This document shows, in pieces, positions 49,123-54,103 of a DNA stretch of 64,000 bases (the first letter of the stretch is position 1; each line of letters starts with the position of its first letter). Position numbers and translations under genes: made by a program. The stretch is taken from the NCBI GenBank assembly GCA_019637155.1, contig JAHBWE010000030.1, forward strand, positions 1 through 64,000, given 5' to 3'. The DNA is from Labilithrix sp. Its GTDB lineage: Bacteria; Myxococcota_A; Polyangia; Polyangiales; Polyangiaceae. Under the pieces are notes generated by a model, which saw nothing but the letters and a program-made list of their open reading frames with translations, did not search any database and was not told the DNA's origin.

Positions 49123-49688
49123 AGTTTCTCCACGTCTACGACCAGCGCGAGGGGGCACCTTGCGCAGCCCTCACCCGATAGGAATCTGCCATCGATGGAG
49201 CCGTCGATCAAAGCCGATGGATATTGTCCAGGCTGCGAGCGGAGTGGCAGGCTTACTGGAAATTCAAAGGTCGGTACAATGTTGAGACTCACGCTTCCCA
49301 GCGAGCACCCAGGCACTGACGTAAGGTACGCACCTCCCACCATCGCAGCCTCTCGGATCCCGCGATCGACGAGCTCCAGCTTGAAAGCTCCGAAGCTTTC
49401 CCAGTCCACGAGGTAGTTCACGCAGTCCATCCCTCCCGCCGGTCGGTTGACGCGGGCAATATGCACGCTACCGGCGCCGAGACCGTAGTCCGCGTGGCAG
49501 TTCCCGTAGTCCTGTTCATCCGCCCCACGGAAGGTCGAGCGCTGGTCATATCGATCGAGGACCGTGACCTTCAGCCGATCGCCGACTTGAAGGCCCTTCA
49601 CGCATGGCTCATCGCGAGTGGAGTCGCATCCACTGCTGCACGCGAACACGATGGCGAGCGCCAACGCTCCGGCGAGTAGTCGTCTCAT
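49119..49688 (-). CDS. Predicted lipoprotein, unknown function
   Basis: The signal MRRLLAGALALAIVFACSSGC offers two Cys; FAC at residue 17 fits the lipobox better. The 170-residue mature part has several cysteines (CDSTRDEPC, YGNCHADYG, GEGCARC) and beta-like segments (VNYLVDWESFGAFKLELVD, SVSLNIVPTFEFPVSLPL). No family recognised. ATG overlaps the stop of the metalloprotease gene (ATGA), and its own stop overlaps the next ATG the same way, so three genes are translationally coupled. Confidence 0.65.
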   Translation of the reverse strand: MRRLLAGALALAIVFACSSGCDSTRDEPCVKGLQVGDRLKVTVLDRYDQRSTFRGADEQDYGNCHADYGLGAGSVHIARVNRPAGGMDCVNYLVDWESFGAFKLELVDRGIREAAMVGGAYLTSVPGCSLGSVSLNIVPTFEFPVSLPLRSQPGQYPSALIDGSIDGRFLSGEGCARCPLALVVDVEKL

Positions 49689-52600
49689 TTCGGCTCAGGA
49701 AAGATTGCTGCGTCGAGGAGCATCAGCGTCCGACTGTCGGTCGGAGTACCAAACCAGACCGACAGGACCGGCGCGCTCAACGACGCGTTTTCCATCTTGT
49801 ACCGCACAACCGGTTTCCCACAACCGGCGAAGATCTCGGTGTTGAAGGTGCCAGACGCCGTCAGCGGGGGCTCGAACTGAAGGCCGCTTCCGAACTCCCT
49901 CGCTGGCCGCAGCGTGAAAGGACGCTGACACTCTGCAGGGACGCTCAAGATGTTCGGGTACAGATCTACTGTCAGACCATGCGCGCCGCGCGTAACGAGT
50001 TGTCCGGGGTTCGTGACCTGCGCCCAGAAGACGTCTGGGCAGGTGTCGCCCGGCGCCACCAGTCCAGCATTGACCTCGGCTTCGGTCAGCGTCGCGCCAT
50101 CGAACGTGACGTCCGCGGGGCACTTCACGCATCGATTTCCGACGACCGTGTCGGGACAGAACACGCAGACGCCGTCGGCGTTCGATGTCTCGTTCGGCGC
50201 GCAGGGCGTGCACGTCGCCGCGTTGAGCCGGAGTGAAGGCTCGGGCGGCGGGCCGCCGAGCGCGTCGCGAACGAGGCCGTCCGCGAGGCACGTCTCGAAG
50301 AGGTTGCCGACCGTCGGAGGATCGGCGGCCGACGGCGAGTGGAGCGCGAAGACGCGGCAGCGATCGCACCAGGATTGGCTCGCGCTCGACATCGCCGCGT
50401 TGAGCGCGGCGTACGTATCGGCGTCGCGGAGGTCGCCCGACCGCAGAGCGAGGCGCTCCGCGAAGTGAGCGGCGAAGGTCTTGAGGGTATCGCCTGCGAG
50501 GCGCACGCGCTCCGGATCGTTCAGGTTCCCGAACCCCGTCGCCGCGACGCCCAAGCTCGCCGCTCCCTGCGCGGTCGGTCGCGGGACGATCTCTGCCCAG
50601 ATGTCTCCATCCCCCGGGACGAGGGCGAAGCGCTGGCCGTGGCCGTCGTACACATCGTGGAGGAGCGTCGCGATGCGTCCGACGTTGGGCTGACCAATTC
50701 CACCGACCTGGCCCGGCGCGCCCGTAACGTTCGCATCGAAGCAGCTCGCGGTAGACGCTGTCTTCCGGTAGCAGGTGCCGCTGTTGGGGTGGAACCCCCA
50801 GATCTCCGCAGGCCAGTTGTACGCCGCGCTTCCCGCGACCTGACCGCTGATGAAGTCGGCGATGCCCTCGTTCGTGTACTGAAGCGGCGTCGTCAGATCG
50901 GTCCCGCCGACGGCCTGCCTCGCCATGTAGTCCACGGCGCCGTCCTGGGCGTCGTGCAAGAGCGAGCAGAACAAGAAGTGCCCGAACTCGTGGGAGAAGA
51001 GGCCGCGCTCGGCGCGCACCGCAGTCCCGTCGGGGAGCAACGAGTCGGCCGCGAGCATCGTGTTGAGGAAGACCTGCGAAGCTACCGCGGCCGCTGGATG
51101 GGTGGGCGGTAGTCCCGCGCGCGTGAGGATGCCGTCGCCACGCGTCGCCGCGTTGAGGACGAGCTGCGCTCCCGTCCCTGTCAGCTGGAGGAAGCTGAGG
51201 CACGACGTGGTGGGGAAGACCTTCTCGTTGCGCACCCAGCGAATGGTCGTCGGCCAGAAGCCCGCGACGATGCGCTGGCGGTGGGGCGTCTCGTAGGGGA
51301 TGACGTCTCGCGCCCAGAGCGCCGCGTCGTCGGACTGGTAGAGCGCCGAGAGCCACTCGTGATCGATGTGGACCGTCGCCTTCGCCGACGACGACCGCGC
51401 GGCCGCCTCGCCGATCTCGTCGAGCCGGAAATCGCCCGGCGTCGGTCGCGCCGCGTCGTAGCCGCGGAAGTCGCAGAGGTCCGCGGGCACGAGGAAGTTC
51501 GTCATGATGATGCGCGGCGTGTCGAGCTGGAGGCAGAGCCCCGATCCACGCGGCGTCTCGCCCGCGAACATGTCGACCACCGCCATCCCGTCGTTGTTCG
51601 TCTTCGACCACAACGCCGTCGGCAGGAGCCCGCCGACGCGCTGCAGGATCGTCACGCGCATCCCCGCCGCCGCGAGCGGATGGTTCGCGAGCGGTCCCCA
51701 ACCACGGATCATCACGGGATCCGGCGTTGGCGGTATACCCGCGACCGGCTGGACGAAGGCCGGGTCCTGCGTCACGGCGTGGAGGTAGAGCGTGACCGGG
51801 ACCTTCGGGCCGGCGAAGACGGAGGCGATCGTCGTCGTGATGAGCTGGACGGCGTCCTTGATGCGCGTGAGGAGCCACGCCGTCGCGTCGACGAGCACGC
51901 GCGCGACGCTGCCGGACTCGAGGGCGATGTCTCCGCGCCGGTCGAGCGGTGTCGTCTCGTAGTCGAGGTAGCGAAAGCCGCTCCGCCCGAGGAGCTCGAG
52001 CCGGAGCGAGCCGTTCGCGTTGCGGAGCCCCGACGGTAGGTTCCGGATGACGACGGCCTCGAAGATGGTTCGATCGCCCGTGACGTCTCGCGTGGTCTGG
52101 AGATCGATGAGGCGGTTGTACGTCGCGCCCGGGATCAGCACTGGAACGAAGGTGCCGTTGCCGTCGCCGGGGTTCGTGAAGACGCCGCACTTGCCGGCGT
52201 GCGGCGCGAGCTCGCTGTCGAGAAGCGGGCGGCTGAGGAGGTGGATCGACAGGCGGCGGAGCGCCAGCGCGTCGTCGCGATGCCGGAGGTAGACCCACGC
52301 GTAGTAGAGCGGCGTCGCCGCGCCGCGGCTGTCGACCTCGGCCACCTTCTGAGCCCTCGCCCAGCTGAACTCGCGGCGGAGCCGCGCGGTCTCGACCGGC
52401 GTGATGATCTCCATCTCGTCGGTGCATCCGCCGGCCTGCGTGACCGGCGACTTCACGGTGACGGGGTAGTTGGGCGCCGGATTCACCGTGAGACGGAAGT
52501 TCGTGCCCGTACGGCGAGCGCTGGCCGGTTGTCGGTCGGTGCAGCCTTGAAAGCGGAGCACACGACCGAGCAGGAGGGCCTCTTGCGTCGTCGGCGTCGC

Positions 52601-52819
52601 GGTCGGCGATTGACCCTGATAGGTGCACGTGACGTCTTGCCCGTTCGGACGACGGAAGACGAACGAGATCGTTCCGTTCGCGATGATGCCACCGGCGACG
52701 GCGTACTCCTGCTGGAGCGAGAACCCCTGCGGAGTCGACGGCTCGAAGCGACTCGTGAGGACCGAGCCGGCGTCGCCGCCGCTCGTGACGGCAAGGTCGA
52801 TGAAGGGCGACGCCGTCAT
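49685..52819 (-). CDS. Giant HEFGH metalloprotease-like protein, no visible signal peptide
   Basis: A 1044-residue protein. HEFGH (610-614) and NEGIADF (650-656) match the gluzincin zinc site, where the second motif supplies the third ligand Glu. About 600 residues of unassigned, beta-rich sequence precede this. A Cys-rich segment at 870-900 (CTPCAPNETSNADGVCVFC) resembles TNFR/ephrin-type repeats of secreted proteins, and a beta domain ends the chain. Despite this extracellular look, the ATG at 52819 starts with no signal peptide, and the upstream frame gives none. The region before it is where the neighbouring gene's end is damaged, so the true N-terminus may be lost. It is coupled to two lipoprotein genes. 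Confidence 0.7.
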   Translation of the reverse strand: MTASPFIDLAVTSGGDAGSVLTSRFEPSTPQGFSLQQEYAVAGGIIANGTISFVFRRPNGQDVTCTYQGQSPTATPTTQEALLLGRVLRFQGCTDRQPASARRTGTNFRLTVNPAPNYPVTVKSPVTQAGGCTDEMEIITPVETARLRREFSWARAQKVAEVDSRGAATPLYYAWVYLRHRDDALALRRLSIHLLSRPLLDSELAPHAGKCGVFTNPGDGNGTFVPVLIPGATYNRLIDLQTTRDVTGDRTIFEAVVIRNLPSGLRNANGSLRLELLGRSGFRYLDYETTPLDRRGDIALESGSVARVLVDATAWLLTRIKDAVQLITTTIASVFAGPKVPVTLYLHAVTQDPAFVQPVAGIPPTPDPVMIRGWGPLANHPLAAAGMRVTILQRVGGLLPTALWSKTNNDGMAVVDMFAGETPRGSGLCLQLDTPRIIMTNFLVPADLCDFRGYDAARPTPGDFRLDEIGEAAARSSSAKATVHIDHEWLSALYQSDDAALWARDVIPYETPHRQRIVAGFWPTTIRWVRNEKVFPTTSCLSFLQLTGTGAQLVLNAATRGDGILTRAGLPPTHPAAAVASQVFLNTMLAADSLLPDGTAVRAERGLFSHEFGHFLFCSLLHDAQDGAVDYMARQAVGGTDLTTPLQYTNEGIADFISGQVAGSAAYNWPAEIWGFHPNSGTCYRKTASTASCFDANVTGAPGQVGGIGQPNVGRIATLLHDVYDGHGQRFALVPGDGDIWAEIVPRPTAQGAASLGVAATGFGNLNDPERVRLAGDTLKTFAAHFAERLALRSGDLRDADTYAALNAAMSSASQSWCDRCRVFALHSPSAADPPTVGNLFETCLADGLVRDALGGPPPEPSLRLNAATCTPCAPNETSNADGVCVFCPDTVVGNRCVKCPADVTFDGATLTEAEVNAGLVAPGDTCPDVFWAQVTNPGQLVTRGAHGLTVDLYPNILSVPAECQRPFTLRPAREFGSGLQFEPPLTASGTFNTEIFAGCGKPVVRYKMENASLSAPVLSVWFGTPTDSRTLMLLDAAIFPEPK

Positions 52820-52893
52820 CGCATGTCTCGGAAGCGTACCGAAGGCGGGGGGCGGCGCAAGTACACCGCCCGTTTCCCCCCGCGACCGCCAAC

Positions 52894-53105
52894 CAATCGA
52901 AGGGCCGGGCGGAGACGAACGCCCCCGACTCCACCTTGACGTCCTTTCCATAGAACGTCCCGGAGTGGGGCTCGTCCTTGCACGCGGAGCGCGGGTGGCG
53001 CCGCGCATCGTCGTCGTAATCGTAGTCGTGACCACCGTGGTGACGGCTCTTCGACGAGTGGCTCTTCGATGAATGCTTTCCGTATTTCCAGTGTTTCCCG
53101 TGCTT
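52894..53105 (-). pseudogene. In-frame continuation of the polymer-forming lipoprotein beyond a TGA
   Basis: Directly after the TGA at 53106-53108 the same frame runs on as KHGKHWKYGKHSSK, a His/Lys/Ser-rich loop, then HHGGHDYDYDDD, then SGTFYGKDVKVESGAFVSARPFDW. This is the expected closing strand-turn of the polymer-forming domain that starts at 53966. The TGA sits inside a 9-bp coding repeat of type (H/R/Y)(W/G)K, one base away from TGG or GGA. No in-frame stop follows FDW, so the normal gene end is also missing. Either the gene is decaying, the stop is read through, or the base is a sequencing error. Confidence 0.7.
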
Positions 53106-53966
53106 TCAGCGTTTCCAGTGGTCTCGCTCGCAGTCGTCGTCCCGCTTGTCGTCGCACCGTTCGAGGCTCACGCTCGCGTTCGGGGCGACCACGGCGCCCG
53201 CGAACGGCGGACGGACGATGAGCTCCTTGCTCCCGAGGTGGCTGACCAGGAGCTTCGGCTCCGATGCCGTCGTGCTCCGCGTCGCGGCGCGAAAGTAGGA
53301 CTCGTCGCGAACATAGAGTTGCACTGGCCCGGCGCCGTCGTCGAGCTCGAGCTCGCTGCCGCGGAAGAACAGCGCCTTCGACACGACGTAGACGCCGGAA
53401 TGAAGGACGACCGTCGCGCCGGACGCGGCGATGAGCTCGTCGTAGGTCCCAGGAGAGAGGTCGCGTGTCACGCCCCGCGCGACGACGACGTCGCCGAGCG
53501 AGGTCGGCGAGGCGGTCACCGACCAGCTCTGCGTGGATACGTCGATGTTGGCCGGGGCTTCGAGCCGCCCATGCACGGACGAGCCCGGCGCGCGCCGCAC
53601 CTTACCCGTCGCGCGGACGTCTCCCTCGATGCGTGCTTGCTTGCCGAGCTCGACGTCGCCGACCGCCGTGACCAGCGCGGAGGAGAGCTTCGCTTCCTTT
53701 CCGATCTCGACGTCGCCGTCCGCGCCGAAGACGCCGCCGCGAACCTGCGCGCGATCGCCGATGCGGACCCGCGTGGCGGCGCCGACCGTCGTGTCGAGGA
53801 AGCTCGCACCGCTCGGGACGCGGAGGGTGATGGAGAGGACCTCGGGATCGAGGTTGCTCTGGGACGTGTCGATCGCCGGTTCGTTCGTGTCCAAGCTGCA
53901 CGCCGCGGCGACGCAAGCGAGCGCGAGGCACAGCGTCCGACCCCACGAGCCAAAACGATTCGTCAT
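53106..53966 (-). CDS. Polymer-forming (bactofilin-like) lipoprotein, cut by an internal TGA
   Basis: The signal ends in ACVAAAC, a lipobox. Residues 45-265 form a right-handed beta-helix-like array with Gly/Ala turns (ATRVRIGDRAQVRGG, GDVEIGKEAKLSSA, GDVELGKQARIEGDV), as in polymer-forming or bactofilin-like surface proteins. A second part (PGTYDELIAASGATVVLHSGVYVVSKAL, LLVSHLGSKELIVRPPFAGAVVAPNASVSL) is typical of myxobacterial surface proteins of this class, which end soon after with a GxFYGK...PFDW strand. Here that strand lies beyond the TGA. As called, the protein is truncated before its last strands. It lies upstream of the HEFGH gene. Confidence 0.7.
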   Translation of the reverse strand: MTNRFGSWGRTLCLALACVAAACSLDTNEPAIDTSQSNLDPEVLSITLRVPSGASFLDTTVGAATRVRIGDRAQVRGGVFGADGDVEIGKEAKLSSALVTAVGDVELGKQARIEGDVRATGKVRRAPGSSVHGRLEAPANIDVSTQSWSVTASPTSLGDVVVARGVTRDLSPGTYDELIAASGATVVLHSGVYVVSKALFFRGSELELDDGAGPVQLYVRDESYFRAATRSTTASEPKLLVSHLGSKELIVRPPFAGAVVAPNASVSLERCDDKRDDDCERDHWKR

Positions 53967-54103
53967 GTTCCCCCTCCGGGCGACGTCGGCGTCGAGCCGC
54001 CGAGCGCAAAGCCACTACCAATCTACCTGCCGTTTCGATCACCACCAGGTAAATCGTGACAACCGATGCAGTTGGGTGCGAGGGCGGTTCCTCGGCCCCG
54101 ACG

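Follow-up and report, generated by a model that had tools for sequence, protein, structure and literature searches.

A minus-strand frame of the window (the whole 64,000-nucleotide stretch of Labilithrix sp. DNA that was analysed) starts with ATG at 53966, runs for 286 codons and then meets TGA at 53106-53108, and the question raised by this locus is whether that codon closes a short lipoprotein gene or interrupts a longer one. The original prediction had placed this TGA in the middle codon of a 9-bp repeat encoding (H/R/Y)(W/G)K, one base away from TGG or GGA, and had followed the frame beyond it to a closing motif GTFYGKDV...PFDW. All of this was confirmed by reading the codons: the repeats are CAC TGG AAA, CGC TGA AAG, CAC GGG AAA, CAC TGG AAA and TAC GGA AAG, the TGA being the middle codon of the second, and the frame continues to PFDW, which ends at 52893, with no stop there or directly beyond. 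The features of this first part are as follows.

53970-53977, minus strand: RBS-like sequence GGAGGGGG, 5' of the lipoprotein start, with 5/6 matches to AGGAGG
53106-53966, minus strand: 286-codon 5' part of the gene, which encodes the lipoprotein signal (cysteine 23) and the beta-solenoid domain and runs up to the internal TGA; relatives align from the cysteine onward, and pLDDT is >90 over most of residues 50-270
53106-53108, minus strand: internal TGA, codon 287, as read in the DNA
53076-53120, minus strand: five 9-bp repeats (H/R/Y)(W/G/stop)K, from the codon reading
52968-53159, minus strand: Lys/His/Trp-rich repetitive insertion in the loop that precedes the last strand; it is predicted to be disordered (pLDDT <50 at residues 292-328) and is absent in most relatives
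52893-52961, minus strand: conserved closing strand GTFYGKDVKVESGAFVSARPFDW, beyond the stop, homologous to the domain end in all relatives (18.0 bits alone; strand 334-345 at pLDDT 89-96)

The N-terminal signal ends in LACVAAAC and cysteine 23 is invariant in alignment A1, which marks the product as a bacterial lipoprotein; the call was made from the signal and the invariant cysteine. In DNA of 71% GC an open frame past a TGA means little by itself. The 71 residues after the TGA were found to match the end (positions 289-317) of a profile of relatives built without the window, with 18.0 bits (E 6e-8), whereas the best of 200 shuffles reached only -0.6 bits. This homology exceeds chance, so the coding-like continuation proposed earlier was borne out and the extension is, on sequence evidence, genuine coding history. 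The GTFYGKDV...PFDW end forms the final, conserved strand of a beta-solenoid domain common to ~70 relatives, and the alignment shows that relatives in the same order keep the domain to its end. Comparison with relatives, which might all have ended here without any conservation farther on, gave the opposite result, as they continue through the position. The TGA is a premature stop, lying within sequence that the intact relatives conserve.

The structure model of the read-through protein is a beta-solenoid (pLDDT >90 for most of residues 50-270), with a low-confidence insertion at ~275-328 that holds the TGA codon 287 and a confident final strand at 334-345. Since the TGA sits before the last strand, the stop removes that strand from the solenoid domain. 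The insertion holding the TGA is, by the alignment, a variable loop; repetitive K/H/W-rich insertions in the same loop were also found in a paralogue of the own genome (L002) and in the more distant G168 (L060). The three proteins with these highly charged Lys/His/Trp-rich insertions (window 52968-53159, L002 and L060) differ in sequence, and the insertions may form a patch that binds metal, DNA or a surface. The polymer-forming family label given earlier to this protein did not hold. Membership of Bactofilin (PF04519) was rejected, as the window protein reached 16.9 bits where the cut-off is 27.9, and no relative matched at 1e-3. The relatives match DUF7305 (PF23981) instead (8/14 in A1 at E <= 1e-3, best 1.1e-8), and the window protein itself scored 20.5 bits against this profile, below the cut-off of 27.

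Beyond PFDW, where the first frame has no stop, lies a second open reading frame, with the following features.

52820-52892, minus strand: linker interval with the net +1 frameshift, placed by the intact-fusion profile and the change of coding frame
49685-52819, minus strand: 3' part of the same gene, read in a shifted frame; it encodes an HExxH metalloprotease-like domain with a Cys-rich tail and lacks its own signal peptide; homologous to the same frame of G149, with 42% identity along 1,020 aa, and fused in relatives
50978-50992, minus strand: HEFGH, predicted zinc-binding and catalytic motif; H574, E575 and H578 are invariant in 11 sequences
50867-50872, minus strand: NE of NEGIAD; E615, the predicted third zinc ligand, is conserved across 90% or more of the alignment

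The relation of the two frames was decided by relatives in which solenoid, linker and second domain were observed directly in one uninterrupted frame: G149, G143 (C84), G148 (C61), G123, G147, G045 and G168, giving seven intact fusion loci (L026, L055, L056, L057, L060, L061 and L065). A profile of the intact fusions gave 166 bits on the window in one frame and 503-513 bits when a frame change was allowed anywhere between 52893 and 52821, showing homologous halves that are joined across different frames. Since seven relatives are fused in one frame, the window would hold one gene of ~1,400 codons, and the missing stop codon of the first part and the missing signal peptide of the second are explained because one gene is cut by a TGA and a +1 frameshift. 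Neither an RBS upstream of the second frame nor a signal peptide was found for it. Hence, the lost gene end assumed previously is not lost, the supposed next gene being the remainder of the same gene; the remark that it lacks a signal peptide stands, and its description as a separate gene does not. We are confident that the locus is one split gene.

The codon scores showed coding in the first frame to ~52895, no clear coding in any frame between 52895 and 52820, and coding in the second frame from ~52820. By homology, all placements of the frameshift score within ~10 bits of one another. As a guess, the TTGGTTGG tandem at 52889-52896 (TTGG duplication) is one candidate site, and given the poor codon scores in all three frames, 52895-52820 might conceivably be a short non-coding spacer. 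The linker amounts to ~62 residues' worth and that of the nearest relative (G149) to ~55, which makes a large deletion unnecessary; a net +1 frameshift takes the place of the junction deletion suggested originally. A mobile or repeated element at the junction was rejected, as the 91-bp junction was found once in the genome and other matches were of 15-39 bp; so was a terminator-like hairpin, whose stability was no greater than that of shuffles (z -1.05).

The second domain carries the HExxH zinc metallopeptidase motif, HE(F/Y)GH, with a downstream Glu of NExxAD type, in 11 aligned sequences. A search with the downstream frame (49688-52819) found relatives in 18/183 genomes of the order, a count that includes the own genome. 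A scan of genome contigs gave 19 second-domain relatives, all in myxobacterial or deltaproteobacterial records and including Sorangium cellulosum So0157-2 and Pyxidicoccus caerfyrddinensis. The stand-alone relatives of the protease-like domain start with their own lipoprotein signal, unlike the window frame. By sequence the domain matched no Pfam family and no PDB entry, and the fold search, with a low-confidence model as query (pLDDT 65.6), gave no PDB match at E <= 0.001. It is best called, as judged from its motifs, a metalloprotease-like domain of no named family. No description of a solenoid-protease fusion was found in the literature, and the intact parent architecture appears to be undescribed.

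The parent can be pictured as one minus-strand gene from ~53966 to 49685, which would encode an exported lipoprotein with a DUF7305-like beta-solenoid, a linker and an HExxH metalloprotease-like domain. One lesion would be the nonsense change to TGA at 53106-53108 in the disordered repetitive insertion, and the other the linker frameshift (net +1), lying somewhere from 52893 to ~52820; function would be lost through both. A single gene inactivated by these two lesions is the probable state of the locus. With its lipoprotein start signals intact, the locus may still yield a 286-aa lipoprotein that lacks the last strand; the protease-like part, having no usable signal peptide, would not be exported. 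Because the protease-like domain carries no further lesion, the break is probably recent. Of the decaying locus envisaged in the original prediction, the nonsense change and a second lesion at the junction are best supported; the lost end and the polymer-forming label were dropped, and nothing points to a large deletion.

Both lesions were observed directly in the assembly, and they are likely to be real mutations rather than local assembly errors. The gene could be intact in the organism, with the TGA and the frame change as assembly or base-calling artefacts at a repetitive, GC-rich spot: the lesions lie within ~290 bp of each other, beside the 9-bp repeat and a GC-rich palindrome with G and C runs, and the remaining 4.3-kb gene is intact with its catalytic motif conserved. 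Such an origin would require two independent kinds of error, however, in an assembly that looks clean. In the own genome, 150 kinase and 86 ABC-transporter domains (236 in all) held no internal stop, and codon scores gave five frameshift-like places in 464 kb, the window locus among them; a paralogue on another contig also has an internal TAG. No internal stops were found among the ~150 sigma-54 domain matches listed for four genomes. It weighs against real mutations that the 11 other genomes of the genus that were searched contain no orthologue of the window gene. An initial scan by codon score was too noisy, owing to antisense shadows, and was discarded; the nonsense results of the scan that replaced it, confounded by ordinary close gene pairs, were left out. 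An artefact is thus judged unlikely. Recoding, with the TGA decoded as Trp, Sec or some other residue and the parts joined by ribosomal frameshifting, is hardly credible. Coding-like sequence and homology do extend past both sites, but two events would be needed in one gene, the control domains contain no in-frame TGA, and the intact relatives have no stop here. The broken relatives have TAG or TAA at other sites, and such variety in stop codon and position makes a programmed recoding site very unlikely. Neither SelB nor tRNA-Sec was found above cut-off in the genome (the best match for the latter being a tRNA-Ser), Rfam yielded no SECIS, and a selenoprotein or reassignment of TGA was rejected.

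Two genes, by design or by recent fission, would consist of a short lipoprotein ending at the TGA and a separate protein from ~52819. The low coding score in every frame between 52895 and 52820, the ATG at 52819 and the intact protease-like domain are in keeping with this arrangement, which we nevertheless consider distinctly improbable: the first protein would miss a conserved strand, and the second would have neither RBS nor signal peptide, whereas nearly all examined relatives with a complete start are exported.

Broken copies also occur elsewhere in the solenoid family. Internal stops were found in 5/71 solenoid loci, namely the TGA of the window, a TAG on contig C7 of the own genome, a TAG in G154, and a TAA in G110 and a TAG in G125, the last two being taken from the search table only; one further locus, in G143 (C79), is broken by a frameshift in the linker. 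The own-genome copy (L004, C7:156814-157764, minus strand) is a paralogous solenoid lipoprotein with the in-frame TAG in VLRH*GATIT, open for hundreds of residues beyond, and on this reading the own genome has two broken copies. In G143 (Sorangiineae bacterium NIC37A_2) the frameshift of the C79 copy (L058 / L130) lies at nearly the same point of the linker as in the window, and the C84 paralogue is intact. The G154 locus (L059, C152:25808-26743) is interrupted by its TAG halfway through the solenoid domain, and the protease-like domain follows without a change of frame. With the window excluded because it had been chosen for its stop, internal stops number ~4/70, against 0/~386 in control domains, a difference that chance would rarely produce (Fisher p ~4e-4, computed with 4/67). 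As the controls come from conserved regulatory and transport families, the excess may mean no more than that these lipoproteins are dispensable. The findings suggest that such surface proteins turn over fast. A contingency system, with solenoid lipoproteins switched off repeatedly, and perhaps reversibly, through stops or slippage in repeats, is highly improbable.

Two other places in the own genome were also recorded. At C30:66600-66900, outside the window (L128:2600-2900), an exported protein begins and then passes, out of frame, into a different-looking protein, which we take to be DUF1016-like, in the manner of an insertion or deletion junction. At C3:202606 (L114:2606), a gene with HELFH and HELGH motifs seems to switch frame without a stop and may contain a frameshift.

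For annotation, a truncated lipoprotein plus a cytoplasmic protease becomes one broken gene. The study has further brought out the parent architecture, a lipid-anchored beta-solenoid with a metalloprotease-like domain, encountered to date in myxobacteria and in records of related deltaproteobacteria. As an intact architecture it is a modest new observation; as a stop-codon finding the locus is of low interest, and no general principle is involved.

In comparison with known systems, the window domain resembles DUF7305 (PF23981) in its matching relatives and in its modelled beta-solenoid fold, its own score being below cut-off; it differs in standing on a lipoprotein, in being followed by a protease-like domain in several relatives and in its Lys/His-rich loop insertions. 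HE(F/Y)GH-type motifs with a downstream Glu occur in M4-type enzymes. The second domain is like the HExxH zinc metallopeptidases (gluzincin-like, HExxH...NExxAD) in its invariant HE(F/Y)GH and conserved downstream Glu, and unlike them in matching nothing in Pfam or PDB by sequence or, with the low-confidence model, by fold. DUF583 defines the bactofilins, which are small proteins (PMC4372379). With these (PF04519, for example BacM of Myxococcus xanthus, PMC4372379) the window protein shares a repetitive beta-strand sequence, whereas its profile match is well under the cut-off and the domain here belongs to a secreted lipoprotein fused to a protease-like domain. From bacterial pseudogenes split by a nonsense change and a frameshift, nothing distinctive separates the window locus; its stop and its frame change lie in regions that are continuous and conserved in intact relatives, with no further decay yet, and the most likely reading of the locus is an ordinary gene that broke recently.
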